Source of the DNA: Akkermansia muciniphila
GTDB taxonomy: Bacteria; Verrucomicrobiota; Verrucomicrobiia; Verrucomicrobiales; Akkermansiaceae
Length of the DNA stretch: 64,000 bases
Direction of reading: 5' to 3'
Assembly (NCBI GenBank): GCA_945873305.1
Contig: CAMCCX010000003.1
Coordinates: 1-64,000 of the forward strand
Both the position numbers and the translations under genes were made by a program. Positions 37,588 through 46,370 of the stretch are shown in pieces. The notes beneath the pieces were generated by a model. The model saw nothing but the letters and a program-made list of their open reading frames with translations, did not search any database and was not told the origin of the DNA. Every line of letters begins with the position of its first letter. Position 1 is the stretch's first letter.

Positions 37588-38781
37588 TCAAAACGGCCAT
37601 CCCCCAAGCGCCGGCGGCCCCAAGGTTTCCTGCTCGAAATCTCCCCGGTCGTTTCGTTCCGCGATTGCCGCGATTTCCGCCCGAACATCGGCAAGGCGCC
37701 GATCCGCCAGCAGTTTCGGCAAGAGCTGGATGTCGTAGGGCGTCAGCGGACTGGGCCGCCCACCGGACCGCCAGCGCATGCGGAACGCCTCGACCGGCCG
37801 CGGTGTGACCTCGCGGAGTTTGAGTAAAATCCGCCAACCCGCCGGATCCGTGTCGCCGAAATGATGGTGCGGCAGCGCGGCCGGCAGCTTCTCCAACAGA
37901 TACCGGAACGCCTGCGTCGGGAACGAAGTGGCCGCCACCAAGGTCCGCCGGTCCTGATTCGCAGCGGCGTATTGACGGAAAGTCGTCTTGCGGTTCTCGA
38001 TGCTCAGCAACCGCTCCGCCGTGGTGGAAACCGACGCGCACCGCGCCAGATCGGCGGCGGAAATGAGCACGTGCTCCAAGCCGTCGAAGTCATGCACGCT
38101 GCCGTCCGGGAAATGCAGACACAACGGCCCGTGCAGCTCGACATGGGAATCCCCCGCCGCGAGTCCCAGCGATTTCAGCGAAATTTCCGCGCCGAACAAT
38201 CGCGCCAAGCCGGACTCGAAAGTCCGTTGATGGCGTTCGAGTTCTTTCGAATCCAACCCGATGTCCACGCTCGCCGCACGGATCAAGGTTCCGGCCGGCC
38301 ATTCATTTTCGCTGAGTTTTTTCACCCCATCGAGCAAGCGCCGCAGCGTCTCCGGATGGTTCCAGTGAAACGGACGCAGCGACCGACCTCGGGAAAACGC
38401 CACGCGCAACGACTCGCAAAGCGCCGTCCATTCTGTTGGAAACCGCGAGTGCCCGCGCCGGGAAAACTCCGCGACAACCGCCAGCGCCGCCGCCTGCAAT
38501 TCCACACCCGCGATCCCGCCGAAGCGCTCGATCAGCCACGGTTCGGAAGCCAGCGGCAGCGTCACCCGCTCGATTAGATATTTTCGATAGCGATGGCGTT
38601 TCAAAACCAGCTGACCACACGCCTCAGCTTCCCTCGCCGCCGTCGCCTGGTCTTCCGCACTGGTGATCCCGGCGGCTTCCAACAGTTTCACCCAATCCTG
38701 CGAAAAGGCACGACTCGAAGCACTCACCCGCCTGCCTCGTGCGGCTTGCCATCGGCGGTGAAATTCGGCGAGCCAGTTCAT
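37588..38781 (-). CDS. jetD: Wadjet component JetD (Toprim-like)
   Basis: SIENRKTTFRQYAA and HHHFGDTDPAGWRILLKL Toprim-type motifs; ATGA overlap with JetC. Confidence 0.88.
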   Translation of the reverse strand: MNWLAEFHRRWQAARGRRVSASSRAFSQDWVKLLEAAGITSAEDQATAAREAEACGQLVLKRHRYRKYLIERVTLPLASEPWLIERFGGIAGVELQAAALAVVAEFSRRGHSRFPTEWTALCESLRVAFSRGRSLRPFHWNHPETLRRLLDGVKKLSENEWPAGTLIRAASVDIGLDSKELERHQRTFESGLARLFGAEISLKSLGLAAGDSHVELHGPLCLHFPDGSVHDFDGLEHVLISAADLARCASVSTTAERLLSIENRKTTFRQYAAANQDRRTLVAATSFPTQAFRYLLEKLPAALPHHHFGDTDPAGWRILLKLREVTPRPVEAFRMRWRSGGRPSPLTPYDIQLLPKLLADRRLADVRAEIAAIAERNDRGDFEQETLGPPALGGWPF

Positions 38782-41700
38782 GACAACGCTTCAACCAGCT
38801 TGTCCCGGTCCACCTTCACCACCCAGTTCTCGATGTTCGTGATCTGGCCGCTCTTCTCATCATAACTCCGCTCGACGCGGCACTGCACCACCGTTTCCGC
38901 ATGCTGGATCATCGTCGGCAGGCGGTCTTCAGGAAATGCCATGATCAGTTGCAGGCCGAAATTCCGCGCCAAATCGAGGCACGCGTCGATGCGGTCGCCG
39001 GACAATTTCGAAAACGCCTCGTCCATGATCACGATCCCGAGATTCTTCCGCGACTCGCGCGGGCCGAGGTCGTAAACGCGCTGGAACGCGGCGAGCATCG
39101 CCACGAAAAACGGCGCCTGGTTCTCGCCGCCGCTTTGTTTCTTCGCATTGCGGTTGAGCGAAATCGCCGCGCCCTCGCCCTTGCCGGTCGGCGTGGCCTG
39201 GATGTCCCAGTGGTGATAGTAGCGATAGTCGAGCGCCCGTTGTTGGCGCGGGTCCTCGGCGTTTTCAATTGCCGCCATCAGCGCGGCTTTCGCCTTCTCG
39301 ATTTCCTCCTTCGCGCCGGATGCAAAAAGCTCCAAGCCGGGATTCAACCCTTTTTCCACCAACGCCCAGATCGCGCTGTGGCTGCGGTCCGCCTTCATCG
39401 AAAGCTGATAGCGCCAGCCGCCGATGTCGTGGTCCATCGCGCGATTGAGCTCGCGCTTGGTGCGCTCCGCTTCGTCTAACTTCTCCTTCAAAACATCCAA
39501 CACCTGATGCTGGAGCCGGTCCTCCCACTCCTTGCGCGCGTCCTCTGCGGCGGCGGTGTATTTCTCCAGCTCGTGCGATTCCAGCTCGATCCGGCGGGCG
39601 TCGTAGCGGAAATTTTCGTCATCGCCGGGATCAAACGCCTCGGCGGTTTCCGGGTGTTTTTCGGCAAGTGCATGGCGCTCCAGATCGCGGTCCCGCCGGG
39701 CCTTGTCCGAATCGAACTCGCGGATACGCGCCATTTCCGAAGACGCGTCGAGCCGTTGCTGCCACTTGGGAAACTGTTGCCGCGCCGCGGCGATGAGTTC
39801 GGAAATTTCCGTGTCCCGCACGCCTTCCAGCGATTCACGGCTGAGCTGGCGTTCCGTGAGCGATGCCGCTTCATCCTCCATCAGCGTGGCCATGCCGTCC
39901 TGCAACACGCGCTCCTGTTGGGCGAATTTCTCGATGCTGTTCGCCAGCCGACCGGTGCGTTCGATGACGCCTTGGAAGGTCTTTTCCAGCACCCGCAGCT
40001 TCTCCACCGTCGCCTCGCGCTCGGGCGTGGCGAGCAGGCGGATCGTCTCGTCGAGCTGGGCGAGTTCCTTCCGGAGTCGGGGCAAATCGCGGAGCTTGGA
40101 GCTGCCAGCCGGTGGGTCGGCTTTGTCGAGCGTCCACTGCTCGCCGCGGTGCAGGAACGTCCGCCAATCCTCGCGCAGACGAAGTTTCAAAGTGAGCTCT
40201 TCCTTCACTTCCGCGAGCTCGTCCTGACGCAAAGTTCTCAGTCTTCGCAGGCCTTCCTCGCCGATGGTGAATTCCTTGGCTGGCTGAAAATGCTGCCGAT
40301 GCGGCGGATCCTTGAGCCAGCCGTCTTTGGAAAACGCACGCGGATGCGAATCGAGCTGGCTGACTTTTTCAACTGCGATTAGATCGCCGTAGAGATGCTG
40401 AAGATACGCTTTCGCGAGTTCGTGTTTGGTTTCAAAAAACGCGGCGACAGTCCCGGGCTTCGCGTCCTTGGAACCGGAAAGCTCTCCGGCATGAACGAGC
40501 GGTTCCTCGACGTGCCCGAGGCGCCGGGCTTGTTCCCACGCCGCTTTGAAATCTTCGGCCAGCACCGCGCCGCGCTTGTTTCCTAGCAACGATTCAAGCA
40601 GCGGCCACCACGGTTCGGCCTCGGCCTTCACCTCGATTACGCGGCCGAACGCGTCGGCGCGCTGACCGCGGGATTTCAAGGCATCCAACAACGGCGACGG
40701 CGCGGCGCTGCCTTTGTGATCCAGATCATCCAGCTCGCGGCGGAGGCGGGACTCGCGGTTTTCCAACACCTTGATTTCCTCCTCGATCGGCCGCAGCCTT
40801 TCGCGGGCGTCGTTGACAAGTGATTGATAGATCCGCGGCATCCGCTGGGCGGCGTCCAGCGCGGCCGACTCGTCCGCTCCCTGCATTTGCTTGAGCCAAT
40901 TGGCGGCGGGTTCCGGTTCCTCCAGCCCGAATTCCTGCGCGAGTCGCAGCCATTGTTTCCAATACTGCGTGCGGTCGTGGAGAAACTGACGGGCGGATTT
41001 TTCCGTCTCACGCAACGCGTCCAGCTCGCGGGCGACTTCATCCCGGTGGCTGCGATCCTCGGCGAGGCGGGTGATTTGAAGGTCGTTTCCAGCGACGAGC
41101 CGGATCTTGGCGAGTTGGGAATCCAACTCATTGCGCTCCCCAAGCGCGGACTCGTAGTCGGCGCGGGTCTCGGCATTTTGCGAGCGGAGTTGTTCCAGTT
41201 CGGACTGGCGCGAAGTTAGATTTTCCAGCTTCTGCTCGTGCCCCAGCGCGATGCGCAAATGGGAGTGCAGCCGCGCGTCGCGGCGGGCGGTGACGTATTC
41301 CTGATGCCGCTCGCTGATGCGGACGAGCCGCGCGTGCTGGTCGTGCATTTTCTCCAAGCGTTCCTGTGCGCGGCGGTGCGCATCGACGCTGGCGCGGACG
41401 GCTTTCACGTCTGGCAAGCCCGGCTCCAGCAAGTAGTCGCGAATGAATTTCTCGAACGACTCGACCGGTTGGAAGGCCATCGAGTTCGGCAGGGTTTTAT
41501 TCATCTGCACCCGGTCGAATCCGAGATGGCTGCGCGAGCCCATTTCATCGAGATACGAGGCTTGGCGGTCAAACACCTCGCCGCCGAGATCGCGCTTCAC
41601 GTGGACGCGGAACTCCTCCTCCGACATGAAAGCGACGGCATCCGGATCAAGTTCGGCGCTGAGGAAATCCTCACGCTCCAGGCGGTTGGGAATGGTGAAC

Positions 41701-42104
41701 CACAGCGTGCGGGCTTTGGCGGTCGGGCCTTCGAATTCGATGCGCGCGCCCCAGGTTTCGCGGCGCGGGGTTTCCTCGCCCTTTGCCAGCGGCCAGACGA
41801 ATTCCAAGCCTGCCAGAGTCACGCCGGAAGGGCGCAGGTAGCGTTCCTGGCCGTCGTTGCCCTGCGTGTTCGTATCGCAAAGACAGTAACCGCGCAGTGA
41901 GCGGCCGCTGCCCGCACCGGCGGCGGCTTTGTTGAAACGGCTGAGCGATTCGCCGAGCATGACGAACTGGATCAAGTCCAACAGCACGCTTTTTCCCGAG
42001 CCGTTAGCGCCGGTGATGAGGGACAACCCGGAGACGTCGATGAAGCGGCGGTAGCCATACCAGTTGATGGCGAGGATGCGGCTGAGGTGGACGCGTTTGA
42101 TCAT
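38778..42104 (-). CDS. jetC: Wadjet component JetC (MukB/SMC-like ATPase)
   Basis: Walker A ITGANGSGKSVLLDLIQFVMLG, long coiled coil, C-terminal SGGENQAPFFVAMLAAF and VIMDEAFSKLSGDRI; start chosen at MIKRVHLSR just after the JetB stop. Confidence 0.92.
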   Translation of the reverse strand: MIKRVHLSRILAINWYGYRRFIDVSGLSLITGANGSGKSVLLDLIQFVMLGESLSRFNKAAAGAGSGRSLRGYCLCDTNTQGNDGQERYLRPSGVTLAGLEFVWPLAKGEETPRRETWGARIEFEGPTAKARTLWFTIPNRLEREDFLSAELDPDAVAFMSEEEFRVHVKRDLGGEVFDRQASYLDEMGSRSHLGFDRVQMNKTLPNSMAFQPVESFEKFIRDYLLEPGLPDVKAVRASVDAHRRAQERLEKMHDQHARLVRISERHQEYVTARRDARLHSHLRIALGHEQKLENLTSRQSELEQLRSQNAETRADYESALGERNELDSQLAKIRLVAGNDLQITRLAEDRSHRDEVARELDALRETEKSARQFLHDRTQYWKQWLRLAQEFGLEEPEPAANWLKQMQGADESAALDAAQRMPRIYQSLVNDARERLRPIEEEIKVLENRESRLRRELDDLDHKGSAAPSPLLDALKSRGQRADAFGRVIEVKAEAEPWWPLLESLLGNKRGAVLAEDFKAAWEQARRLGHVEEPLVHAGELSGSKDAKPGTVAAFFETKHELAKAYLQHLYGDLIAVEKVSQLDSHPRAFSKDGWLKDPPHRQHFQPAKEFTIGEEGLRRLRTLRQDELAEVKEELTLKLRLREDWRTFLHRGEQWTLDKADPPAGSSKLRDLPRLRKELAQLDETIRLLATPEREATVEKLRVLEKTFQGVIERTGRLANSIEKFAQQERVLQDGMATLMEDEAASLTERQLSRESLEGVRDTEISELIAAARQQFPKWQQRLDASSEMARIREFDSDKARRDRDLERHALAEKHPETAEAFDPGDDENFRYDARRIELESHELEKYTAAAEDARKEWEDRLQHQVLDVLKEKLDEAERTKRELNRAMDHDIGGWRYQLSMKADRSHSAIWALVEKGLNPGLELFASGAKEEIEKAKAALMAAIENAEDPRQQRALDYRYYHHWDIQATPTGKGEGAAISLNRNAKKQSGGENQAPFFVAMLAAFQRVYDLGPRESRKNLGIVIMDEAFSKLSGDRIDACLDLARNFGLQLIMAFPEDRLPTMIQHAETVVQCRVERSYDEKSGQITNIENWVVKVDRDKLVEALS

Positions 42105-42105
42105 T

Positions 42106-42720
42106 TCAGGCTTCGGCGGCAGGTTGATAGAGGGCGGCACGGGCGAGACAGGATTCGAGGCTGTCAAAAGGGATCACGCGCGGCAGGCTGGGCAGGATTT
42201 CGATAAGCGTCTCGCCAAGCTGGAGCGCTCCTTCCGGCTTGTGAGTGCGGATCAGGCGGTGGCGCTTCAGGCGGCTCAGAAGCGAGTCGAGGTGGGTTTT
42301 TTCCGGCGGGTCGATCTTGTCGAAGGTGTTGCGGAAACGCGTCCACAAATCATCGACCGTGAGGATGACCGCGCTGCTGGCTTCGTTCGTGCGGTGGTCG
42401 TCCCAGACACGCCACAGGACTAACAACAGCAGCGTTTCATCCTTGGTGAACTGCGCCAACAAGTGACAGGCCTCGGGCCGCGGGCGGGCTTGGAGGATGA
42501 AAAAATCATCGTCGATGATGAGCTCCAACCCGAGCGGCGCGAGGTAGTCCTTCAAGTGTTCCTGATAGTGATCGCGGGCGAGCAGGAAATGATCGCGCCC
42601 CGCGCCGCTGCTGCCGAGCAAGGTGCCGCGGCCGATGAGCTCGGCGAGGATTTCGCGGATTGCCGGGCGGTCGTCGTCGGGGACCTCGGACCAGAAGCGG
42701 GGCCAGTTGGGATCGGACAT
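42106..42720 (-). CDS. jetB: Wadjet component JetB (DUF4194-like, MukE-like)
   Basis: Position between JetA and JetC; ARPEACHLLAQFTKDETLLLLVLWRVWDDHR, winged-helix-like. Confidence 0.85.
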   Translation of the reverse strand: MSDPNWPRFWSEVPDDDRPAIREILAELIGRGTLLGSSGAGRDHFLLARDHYQEHLKDYLAPLGLELIIDDDFFILQARPRPEACHLLAQFTKDETLLLLVLWRVWDDHRTNEASSAVILTVDDLWTRFRNTFDKIDPPEKTHLDSLLSRLKRHRLIRTHKPEGALQLGETLIEILPSLPRVIPFDSLESCLARAALYQPAAEA

Positions 42721-42721
42721 G

Positions 42722-44200
42722 TCAGGTTCTTTGGATTTGAAAGCGCTCGACGTTCCAGCCGGCGTGGGAGTCGGCGGGGATTTTTTCGGGGGTGAGGCCG
42801 GTGGTTTTGCCGGGGCCGTCGATGGTCCATTTCACGCGCTGGCCGTCGGCGGTGACAGCGTGCTCGTAGGCGGCGATCGCGAGCAGATCGAGCATTTCAT
42901 CGAGGTCAGTGGCGGCGAAATCCGAAGTCATGACGACGCTGGATTTCTCCGGTAGCAGACGGGCGACGAGGCGGGCGGCGCGTTGCGGAGTCAGGGCGAG
43001 GCGCTGGCGTTCGCGGAGGGCGGCGAGTGTTTCCTCGGCGGTTTCATCGCGGCCGCCGGAGTCGCTGCCGAAGGTGAGATCGGCCGGTGCTTTCACGCGG
43101 CGGGTGCGGGCGAGCGACTCGCTGCCGAAGAAGAATTTCACCTCGGGCACGAGCGGCGCGAAGTCCGGCTCGGCGTCGCGCATGGCGGCGAGGCGGGTGC
43201 CTTCGTGGGCGGCGTTGATGGCGTCGCAGTAGGCTTTGACGATTTCCGGGCGGCGGCCACGGAGCTCGGTTTGGTAGCGGTAGCGTTGTTGGGAAAGTTG
43301 GTTGAACGAGGCCATCCGGGCGTCGATGGCATCGGCGACGAGGCGGATCGCGGAGAGTCGGTGTTCGAGGTCGCGCAGGGCTTTTTCCGCGCGGTGGTAG
43401 GCTTCGTTTTCATCCCAGTGGTAGTGGGCGGCGAGTCCTTCTGCGAGGCGCTCTTTGACGAGTGGATCGTCGCGGCGATCGGCGATGTAGGAGCGCAGGA
43501 CCTGCAACCGGGGCAGCAGGCCGTTTCTACGGAGCGCGTCGTAGCAAACCATGTGCTGGCCCGCGCCGAACTCGGAGTAGAGCAGCCGCAGGGTTTCCGC
43601 AGGCGAGTCGCTGAGGCGTTGGCGGCGGTCGAAGAGCGAGATGAGCTTTTCCACGCCGTGGAGCTGGATGATCGCGCTTTCGAGGCGCGCGTTGCAGTCG
43701 GTGACGGTGCTGCGGATTTCGTCGGATTCCTGCAGACGCGGGTCGAGGATGTTCGGGCGTTCGAGGGTTTCGCAAACGCCGCGGACGGTGTCGGCGAAGG
43801 TTTTGAGCTCGGCGATTTCATCCTCGGCGAGTTCGCGCAGCAGCCGGAGCAACGGGCGCAGGCCGGGGGAAACGAGAGCCCAGCGTTCGTGCAGGCCGAG
43901 TTGCTGGTCTTCGAGCCAGCGGGAATCGCAGAGGCGGTTGAAAAACTGGCCGGCGCGCTGGCGGGCGTCGCGCAGGGACGCGCCTTCGTCGTCGTCGAGC
44001 ACGATGTCCGGGTGCGCGGCGAGGATTTCCCGGATCAGGGCGATGGCCTCGGCGTGGGGAATCCGCCCGGCCTCGCCCGCGACGTCGGCCAGGCGTTCCG
44101 CGCAATCGACGTAAATCGCCGCCGACGGCCGGGTCAGCGGGCGGAAAAAATCCCGCGAGACGGAGGCGAGGAGCTTTTCACTGAGATTCGGCGGGGACAT
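42722..44200 (-). CDS. jetA: Wadjet component JetA (DUF3375-like, MukF-like)
   Basis: 492-aa helical protein from MSPPNLSEKLLASVSRDFFRPL, first gene of the jetABCD order. Confidence 0.85.
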   Translation of the reverse strand: MSPPNLSEKLLASVSRDFFRPLTRPSAAIYVDCAERLADVAGEAGRIPHAEAIALIREILAAHPDIVLDDDEGASLRDARQRAGQFFNRLCDSRWLEDQQLGLHERWALVSPGLRPLLRLLRELAEDEIAELKTFADTVRGVCETLERPNILDPRLQESDEIRSTVTDCNARLESAIIQLHGVEKLISLFDRRQRLSDSPAETLRLLYSEFGAGQHMVCYDALRRNGLLPRLQVLRSYIADRRDDPLVKERLAEGLAAHYHWDENEAYHRAEKALRDLEHRLSAIRLVADAIDARMASFNQLSQQRYRYQTELRGRRPEIVKAYCDAINAAHEGTRLAAMRDAEPDFAPLVPEVKFFFGSESLARTRRVKAPADLTFGSDSGGRDETAEETLAALRERQRLALTPQRAARLVARLLPEKSSVVMTSDFAATDLDEMLDLLAIAAYEHAVTADGQRVKWTIDGPGKTTGLTPEKIPADSHAGWNVERFQIQRT

Positions 44201-44340
44201 GCGGTGAGGCCGAGCTTTATGGCTGCGGAACGGGCAACCCAAGCAAGAACTGTCCGGCCGAATCCGAATTATCGAAAAAATCGAGTTGCATCCAAAGCCC
44301 GGTGAAGTCATCCAAGGGGCTGTTAATCCCTATATTTCCT

Positions 44341-44577
44341 ATGGCTGACCGCGAAGACAAGAATGTGGAAAACGTGCCCGGCAAGTTCTATGTGGACAGC
44401 CAGTGCATCGATTGTGATCTCTGCCGGGAGACCGCGCCGAACAATTTCACCCGTGCCGAAGACGAGGGTTATTCCTACGTTTTCAAGCAACCCGAAAACG
44501 ACGAGGAAATCGCGCAATGCCGCGAAGCCATGGAAGGCTGCCCGGTGGAGGCCATCGGCGAAGATGGCGACGCCTAA
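44341..44577 (+). CDS. 4Fe-4S ferredoxin
   Basis: FYVDSQCIDCDLCRETAPNNF...REAMEGCPVEAIG. Confidence 0.9.
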   Translation: MADREDKNVENVPGKFYVDSQCIDCDLCRETAPNNFTRAEDEGYSYVFKQPENDEEIAQCREAMEGCPVEAIGEDGDA

Positions 44578-44590
44578 GCGCCACGCCGCG

Positions 44591-44962
44591 ATGAAAAAGC
44601 CGCCGCGTTCCAGCAGAATCCGAGAGGAAATCCTGCGGGAATGGCGCGGTGCCGAAGAGCCGGCGGATCTCAACGCCGGCATTCATCTCGCGCAGAAATT
44701 CGTGGCCGCCATCCTGCGTGCCGCCGGGGCGGAAGATGGGTTGCACGAGGACCAAGTCCGCGCGACTTGGAAAGAGCTCGCCGGCGATTTCATCGCCCGC
44801 CACACCGAGCCGATTTCCGTGAAAGGCGGCAATCTCGTCCTGCGCGTGACCCAGCCGGCGCTGCGCTTCCAACTGGAGCAAATGAAACCGATGCTCCTCA
44901 CCCGCATCCGCAACCAACTCGGCGAGGGGCGGATCAAATCCATCAAGTTCCAACTCGGCTAA
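44591..44962 (+). CDS. DciA/DUF721-like protein
   Basis: VRATWKELAGDFIARHTEPISVKGGNLVLRVTQPALRFQLEQMKPMLLTRIRNQLGEGRIKSIKFQLG. Confidence 0.8.
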   Translation: MKKPPRSSRIREEILREWRGAEEPADLNAGIHLAQKFVAAILRAAGAEDGLHEDQVRATWKELAGDFIARHTEPISVKGGNLVLRVTQPALRFQLEQMKPMLLTRIRNQLGEGRIKSIKFQLG

Positions 44963-44974
44963 CTCCCCTTCCTC

Positions 44975-46027
44975 ATGTTTCGCAATCTCATCTTCGACTG
45001 GTCCGGCACGCTGGTGGACGATCTCGGCCCGGTGATCGAGGCGACGAACGCCGTCCTCGGGAAATATGAAATCGCCGCGTTTGATCGCGAAAGTTTCCGT
45101 CGCGCCTTCCGGCTGCCTTACCGGGAATTCTATGCCGAGCAGCTGCCGAACGTCCCGCTGGAGGAACTCGAGGCCCATTTCCGCCCGGCCTTCGACGCCG
45201 CCGTCACTCCCGTCACCGTGCTGCCGCATGCCCGCGAAAAACTTGAATGGTGCACCGCCCTCGGCATCCGCACGTTTGTCCTCACTTCGATGGACTCGCT
45301 CGCTTTCGAGCGCCAGATGGACGATTTCGGTCTCCGCCACCATTTCGAGGCGACCTATTCCGGCGTTTTGGACAAGCGGGAAATCATCCACCAAATCCTC
45401 GAAACCCACGGGCTCAATCCGGCCGAGACCGCCTTCGTCGGCGACATGACGCACGACGTGGAAACCGCGCGTCACGGCGGCATTTCCTCCATCGCCGTGC
45501 TCACCGGCTACAACCACGCGGAGATCCTCGCCGCCGTCCGCCCGGACCTCACGGTGCCCGACCTCGGCGTCCTCCGCACTTTGCTCGACCGCCGCCGCGG
45601 CGTTTCCCGCCCCGTCGCCACCGTCGGCGCGCTGATTCACGATGGAAACGGCCACGTCCTCATGGTCCGCACTCACAAATGGGGCGACCGCTGGGGCATC
45701 CCCGGCGGAAAAATCGAGCGCGGAGAATCCTCCACCGACGCCCTCCGCCGCGAGATCCGCGAGGAAACCGGACTTGAGCTCCGCGAGATCGAGTTCGCCC
45801 TCGTTCAGGACTGCATCGACTCGCCCGAATTCCAGCGTCCGGAGCATTTCCTCCTGCTCAACTACGTCGCGCGCGCCACCTCCACCGCCGTCGAGCTCAA
45901 CGACGAAGCCGAGGAATTCCGCTGGCTCTCCCCCGCCGACGCCCTCGCCCTCAATCTCAACCAGCCCACCCGTTTCCTGCTGATGGAAGCCCTCGATCGC
46001 GACCTCATCTCCCATGCATCCGCCTGA
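44975..46027 (+). CDS. Fused HAD phosphatase - Nudix hydrolase
   Basis: N-terminal HAD LIFDWSGTLVDDLG...FVGDMTHDVETARHGG; C-terminal Nudix box GIPGGKIERGESSTDALRREIREETGLEL. Confidence 0.92.
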   Translation: MFRNLIFDWSGTLVDDLGPVIEATNAVLGKYEIAAFDRESFRRAFRLPYREFYAEQLPNVPLEELEAHFRPAFDAAVTPVTVLPHAREKLEWCTALGIRTFVLTSMDSLAFERQMDDFGLRHHFEATYSGVLDKREIIHQILETHGLNPAETAFVGDMTHDVETARHGGISSIAVLTGYNHAEILAAVRPDLTVPDLGVLRTLLDRRRGVSRPVATVGALIHDGNGHVLMVRTHKWGDRWGIPGGKIERGESSTDALRREIREETGLELREIEFALVQDCIDSPEFQRPEHFLLLNYVARATSTAVELNDEAEEFRWLSPADALALNLNQPTRFLLMEALDRDLISHASA

Positions 46028-46370
46028 CACCATCGAGATCCGCCGCCTGCGCGTCAGCACCCTCATCGGCGTGCCCGACGAGGAACGCGCCGTTTCCCAA
46101 ACGCTGCTCGTCACCGTCCGCATGACCCCGTCGCAAGGTTTCGACGGCTTGGCGGATGAAATTTCCCGGACCGTTGATTATTACGCCGTCTCGCAGGAAA
46201 TCGAGACCCTCGCCGCCGCCCGCCCGCGCCGCCTCATCGAGACGCTCGCCGTGGAAATCGCCGGCCACCTCCTCCGAAATCACCCGTTGCAACACGTCGC
46301 CATCAGCATCGAGAAACACATCCTTCCGAACACCGAGTGCGTCGCCGTGCACATCGAGAGGCGGCGTTAG
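46014..46370 (+). CDS. folB: Dihydroneopterin aldolase family
   Basis: IEIRRLRVSTLIGVPDEERAVSQTLLVTVRM...TVDYYAVSQEIE...RRLIETLAVEIAGHLL...VAISIEKHILPNTECVAVHIER. Confidence 0.85.
   Translation: MHPPDTIEIRRLRVSTLIGVPDEERAVSQTLLVTVRMTPSQGFDGLADEISRTVDYYAVSQEIETLAAARPRRLIETLAVEIAGHLLRNHPLQHVAISIEKHILPNTECVAVHIERRR

Follow-up and report, generated by a model that had tools for sequence, protein, structure and literature searches.

The window, that is, the whole stretch of 64,000 nucleotides analysed, carries a gene in which a HAD domain is joined to a Nudix domain and which overlaps folB. Of 118 distinct homologous HAD domains, 104 adjoin folB or are fused with FolB, and judging from sequence we consider this HAD the best candidate, in this branch of the Verrucomicrobia, for the enzyme that removes the phosphate just before FolB. 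Coordinates are given in Table 1.

Table 1. Features of the HAD-Nudix-folB region and of the genes upstream of it (window positions)
Feature	Position	Strand	Basis or remark
Wadjet-like operon	37588-44311	-	
397-aa ORF in JetD position	37588-38781	-	position only
MukB-like JetC	38778-42167	-	PADLOC model match
JetB	42106-42720	-	PADLOC model match
JetA	42722-44311	-	PADLOC model match
Ferredoxin gene, upstream of HAD-Nudix	44302-44577	+	Pfam; conserved neighbour in Akkermansiaceae
ORF between ferredoxin and HAD-Nudix genes	44591-44962	+	same-place gene in L061 matches DciA (replicative helicase loader)
HAD-Nudix fusion gene, 350 aa, ATG start	44975-46027	+	ORF, Pfam, AlphaFold2 model
HAD domain, residues 1-205, C1-type helical cap at ~17-75	44975-45589	+	AlphaFold2 model, alignment
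Nudix domain, residues 206-350	45590-46024	+	Pfam, AlphaFold2 model, residue conservation
Overlap of HAD-Nudix gene and folB, 14 bp	46014-46027	+	ORF coordinates
folB, dihydroneopterin aldolase, 118 aa, ATG start	46014-46370	+	Pfam FolB E 1.3e-21; only FolB of the genome

Gene structure, linkage to folB and history of the fusions

Pfam matches place HAD_2 at residues 5-175 of the ORF (E 3.6e-22) and NUDIX at residues 214-330 (E 5.5e-23). In the AlphaFold2 model of the protein (mean pLDDT 92.6), a HAD core bearing a small helical cap and a full Nudix fold can be recognised, both domains being well folded; with a pTM of 0.61, their relative placement is not fixed in the model. The initial annotation had described HAD and Nudix domains in one polypeptide whose gene overlaps folB by 14 bp, and ORF coordinates, Pfam and the model agree on this. 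The reading frame is kept in 69 distinct HAD-Nudix homologues, down to about 48% identity, so the ORF does not exist by chance. The same 14-bp overlap, which likely reflects translational coupling, is found in many relatives; in others the two genes overlap by 4 or 8 bp or are separated by a short gap.

Relatives were taken from 80 loci of other species, and 388 genomes of the phylum were scanned with a HAD profile. Taxon labels in the record titles of metagenome-assembled genomes are not reliable taxonomy. The scan left a clean gap between 54 genomes above 230 bits and the next at 101 bits. Among the 118 distinct HAD domains, 61 belong to HAD-Nudix proteins adjoining folB (61 of the 69 HAD-Nudix homologues), 29 form a single polypeptide with FolB, and 14 stand alone next to folB. 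No folB lies near six HAD-Nudix proteins and six lone HADs. The remaining two domains are cut off by the end of the sequence stretch; one of these (G198) has no folB nearby on a longer sequence. Linkage of the fusion to folate genes elsewhere, on which the initial annotation had staked its proposal, is thus borne out, all the more as HAD-FolB fusions occur in other lineages.

These HAD-FolB fusions, in which both domains score above the Pfam cut-offs, fall in four separate clades, and a model of one of them is confident in both domains (pLDDT 89.4). In the phylum scan, the HAD of Akkermansia-like genomes (group g2), where present, is always fused to FolB; the fusion is also found in most Rubritalea-like genomes and in others. 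FolB was encoded by all 54 HAD-bearing genomes of the scan; as it is present in 346 of the 388 genomes anyway, and the genomes are related, this co-occurrence says little by itself. Another 12 HAD-bearing genomes also encode FolB without exception, including six in which the HAD-Nudix gene no longer adjoins folB.

The HAD tree was rooted on the DWNGT-type HADs described below. HAD-Nudix proteins are found at its base and in every main branch, with six changes in Nudix presence and four changes to a HAD-FolB fusion. The simplest reading of the tree would be an ancestral HAD-Nudix gene next to folB, followed by repeated loss of the Nudix domain (about six times) and about four separate HAD-FolB fusions. 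The L054/L055 fusion is firmly embedded among HAD-Nudix relatives, whereas of the other fusions two or three could share one origin. In the phylum scan, 16 HAD-fused Nudix orthologues were counted against 54 HADs, so that about two in three HAD-bearing genomes lack the Nudix half. No stand-alone Nudix orthologue was found in the HAD-only genomes checked, and relocation of the domain elsewhere in such genomes was ruled out, only generic Nudix matches being present. Repeated loss without an orthologous replacement argues that the Nudix half is not strictly required.

The HAD of Methylacidiphilaceae-like genomes (L158, L159, L162-L164 and L167) stands alone and does not adjoin folB, and no folate gene was found among its neighbours in these genomes. 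In L159 and L164 it adjoins zinc ABC-transporter genes, and L158 and L164 have a SLOG/lysine-decarboxylase-type gene close to it.

Catalytic residues and nearest relatives

Motif I of the HAD domain reads D8-W-S10-G-T12 (DWSGT). The features expected of a HAD superfamily phosphatase were found: besides the fold, the nucleophile D8, T/S104 (motif II), K134 (motif III) and the acidic pair D157/D161 (motif IV) are invariant in 118/118 domains, apart from T/S variation at 104. The exception is the general acid/base, the Asp two residues after the nucleophile (D+2), which is Ser in all 118. The usual HAD phosphomonoesterase mechanism depends on this Asp, and solved relatives aligned to the domain have it. 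Position 16 is Asp in 118/118. We take it to correspond to the hinge residue near the D+2 Asp of beta-phosphoglucomutase, so that D16 could stand in for the missing residue; by this analogy, it is perhaps the acid/base.

Among curated models, the HAD matches phosphoglycolate phosphatases best, although its Gph score of 56.2 bits lies far below the cut-off of 225. HADs of this type, which have a C1 helical cap, share with the window HAD the fold, the cap type and motifs II to IV; the window HAD differs from them by Ser at D+2, Asp at 16 and its fusion to Nudix or FolB. Within the phylum, the next-best matches to the profile (L235-L252) read DWNGTLLDD and belong to an uncharacterised group widespread in Verrucomicrobiota. 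Like the window HAD, these DWNGT proteins lack Asp at D+2 and mostly have it at position 16; unlike the window HAD, they carry Asn at D+2, score about 100 bits rather than more than 230, and have no folB within about 2 kb. As these relatives also do without the D+2 Asp, the DWSGT HADs look like a subgroup with its own catalytic arrangement rather than a dead enzyme. A divergent DWSGT relative at L253:2027-2596 (minus strand) gives a match split in two, lacks part of the domain and is perhaps degraded.

The Nudix half has the box GX5EX7REUXEEXGU and the fold of the Nudix hydrolase superfamily. The box residues G245, E251, R259-E260 and E263-E264 are invariant in 59/59 fused copies and in 7/7 stand-alone copies from Trueperaceae. 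Its score against the NudB equivalog model, 28.2 bits, is well under the cut-off of 103. Among solved structures, NudI and MutT-like proteins come closest to it, plant NUDX1 and NudB ranking lower. Function is hard to project across Nudix families from sequence (PMC1971073, PMC5389931), and the substrate of this half is not given by its sequence alone. For some organisms, the literature establishes that Nudix enzymes carry out the pyrophosphate removal. The dihydroneopterin triphosphate pyrophosphohydrolases NudB of E. coli, FolQ of L. lactis and NUDT1 of Arabidopsis share fold and box with the window protein, and folQ, which lies in the folKEPQC cluster, is likewise tied to folate genes; the window Nudix differs in being fused to a HAD, in its only general similarity to these proteins, and in being dispensable in many relatives. 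A non-Nudix phosphohydrolase candidate, FolQ2 of the HDIG superfamily, was also inferred from folate gene clusters (PMC1971073), as is the folate link here, but its fold is unrelated and it was put forward for the pyrophosphate step. In Trueperaceae (L075-L081), the stand-alone Nudix is about 55% identical to the fused domain, which suggests gene transfer; a FolB search of its flanks detected none, and a scan of one neighbour identified a methyltransferase.

FolB itself exceeds the Pfam cut-off (77.6 bits against 31.8) and that of TIGR00526 (66.7 against 45.05), and falls just under the TIGR00525 equivalog cut-off (67.3 against 72.15). The FolB proteins of the HAD-bearing clade are more divergent than those elsewhere in the phylum. 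The active-site residues E24, Y56, E76 and K101 are invariant in 105/105 relatives, from which FolB looks active.

Folate pathway context

The genome to which the window belongs (3.06 Mb, 95% complete) is from the Verrucomicrobiota, with relatives labelled Akkermansiaceae. FolE2 is present, at 265.9 bits against an equivalog cut-off of 215, and FolK is also encoded; a genome search detected no FolE. MptA, which would imply a cyclic-phosphate route, was ruled out in place of FolE2, as the protein passes the FolE2 equivalog cut-off and scores under that of MptA. Among 20 genomes checked, 17 encode FolE2 and 19 encode FolK. A bypass by PTPS-III closes the same pathway gap in some organisms; no PTPS-III was found in these 20 genomes, which have only Cys-type QueD. 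With FolE2 and FolK present and no PTPS-III bypass, the dephosphorylation steps from the triphosphate to neopterin need an enzyme. Loss of the final phosphate ahead of FolB is usually attributed to an unnamed non-specific phosphatase, and for the pyrophosphate step most bacteria have no assigned enzyme; the substrate of known FolB is the pterin after dephosphorylation (PMC1971073). A search of the open-access literature returned neither a named dihydroneopterin-phosphate phosphatase nor a HAD-FolB fusion.

On contig C7 of the same genome, folE2 directly follows queC and queD (L184:313-2290). From this arrangement, queuosine and folate synthesis probably both draw on one FolE2 for their dihydroneopterin triphosphate. 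Two Akkermansia-like genomes, G132 (a single contig) and G216, are devoid of both HAD and FolB and keep FolK and QueD; a PTPS-III bypass was ruled out as the reason, their only PTPS being of the QueD type.

Proposed function and alternatives

FolB is constantly partnered by the HAD, and the reaction immediately preceding FolB takes away the last phosphate; as far as sequence comparison can tell, a dihydroneopterin-phosphate phosphatase is therefore the most likely role of the HAD. In the scheme that we propose, the Nudix half would convert dihydroneopterin triphosphate into the monophosphate and pyrophosphate, and the HAD half, as a dedicated phosphatase, would take the last phosphate off 7,8-dihydroneopterin monophosphate and pass dihydroneopterin to FolB. 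HAD-Nudix and FolB together would thus lead from the FolE2 product to 6-hydroxymethyl-dihydropterin for FolK. The ancestral arrangement would have been HAD-Nudix followed by folB; the Nudix domain would then have been lost in several lineages, and the shortened HAD fused to FolB about four times. The Nudix half is plausibly a dispensable triphosphate pyrophosphohydrolase, replaceable by other enzymes. We infer both substrates and both reactions, as well as catalysis by a HAD with Ser at D+2, from these comparisons, and rate the scheme as a whole at marginally better than even. Counting against it are the Ser at D+2, the repeated Nudix loss, a Nudix domain nearer to NudI and MutT than to NudB, and the Methylacidiphilaceae-like HADs that lie apart from folB. 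The initial annotation had offered the protein as a candidate for both dephosphorylation steps. The folate linkage, and the presence of FolE2, FolB and FolK without FolE or PTPS-III, speak in its favour; the idea that a single polypeptide for the two steps is a conserved feature had to be given up, given the absence of the Nudix half from most HAD-bearing genomes of the phylum scan.

The Nudix loss also bears on an alternative in which dihydroneopterin triphosphate is stripped of all its phosphates by the HAD alone, either stepwise or in the form of pyrophosphate, the Nudix domain being an accessory or housecleaning NTPase. Such a HAD would explain how the Nudix domain could disappear about six times, with HAD-folB kept and no replacement orthologue; a HAD pyrophosphatase is found among the structural neighbours, and the missing D+2 acid would fit the cleavage of anhydride bonds, in which the leaving group needs no proton. 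P-type ATPases cleave an anhydride and also do so without Asp at D+2. We nevertheless hold this alternative to be unlikely: the Nudix box is invariant wherever it is present, the domain was fused in the presumed ancestor, and other, generic Nudix proteins are encoded by most of the genomes that lack the fused one. The absence of the D+2 Asp, invariant as it is, might also indicate that the HAD is not a phosphatase at all, and serves as a phosphate-binding scaffold or a regulatory domain that tethers or controls FolB. A scaffold would have no need for D8, T/S104, K134, D157 and D161, all kept in 118/118 domains, and the widespread sister group with Asn at D+2 and mostly the same D16 suggests alternative catalysis rather than decay, so that this role appears quite improbable.

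Much the same doubt attaches to a HAD acting beside the FolB reaction, for example on glycolaldehyde phosphate or 2-phosphoglycolate if FolB cleaves a phosphorylated pterin, or in clearing phosphorylated by-products. The phosphoglycolate phosphatases among its curated matches (though at 56 bits against 225) and the divergence of this clade's FolB would agree with it; set against this, the FolB active-site residues are all conserved, the known substrate is the dephosphorylated pterin (PMC1971073), and the dephosphorylation step would still be missing from the pathway in these genomes. Finally, the HAD-folB neighbourhood could be inherited gene order without functional meaning, as the upstream ferredoxin gene is also kept in close relatives. 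In distant relatives (about 50% identity), however, the ferredoxin gene is gone and folB is still directly downstream of HAD-Nudix. The pairing with folB therefore goes beyond inherited order, and the ferredoxin is probably outside the function. As the HAD-FolB fusion was moreover repeated, and the HAD was never found without FolB in either genome set, mere inheritance of gene order is very improbable indeed.

Returning to the HAD as a phosphatase acting just before FolB, it may be the dedicated phosphatase for dihydroneopterin phosphate that has long been missing from folate synthesis. This enzyme, of a type with Ser at D+2, would have its acid/base at another position (possibly D16); it would be physically attached to FolB in Akkermansia-like bacteria and, in other lineages, to the Nudix domain for the preceding step. 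We advance this reading tentatively, at somewhat short of even chances. Because HAD and FolB have fused repeatedly, a single protein family stands out for this pathway step, in a group that includes the Akkermansia-like bacteria. If the reading is true, it would also define a subgroup of HADs that are active in the absence of the canonical second Asp.
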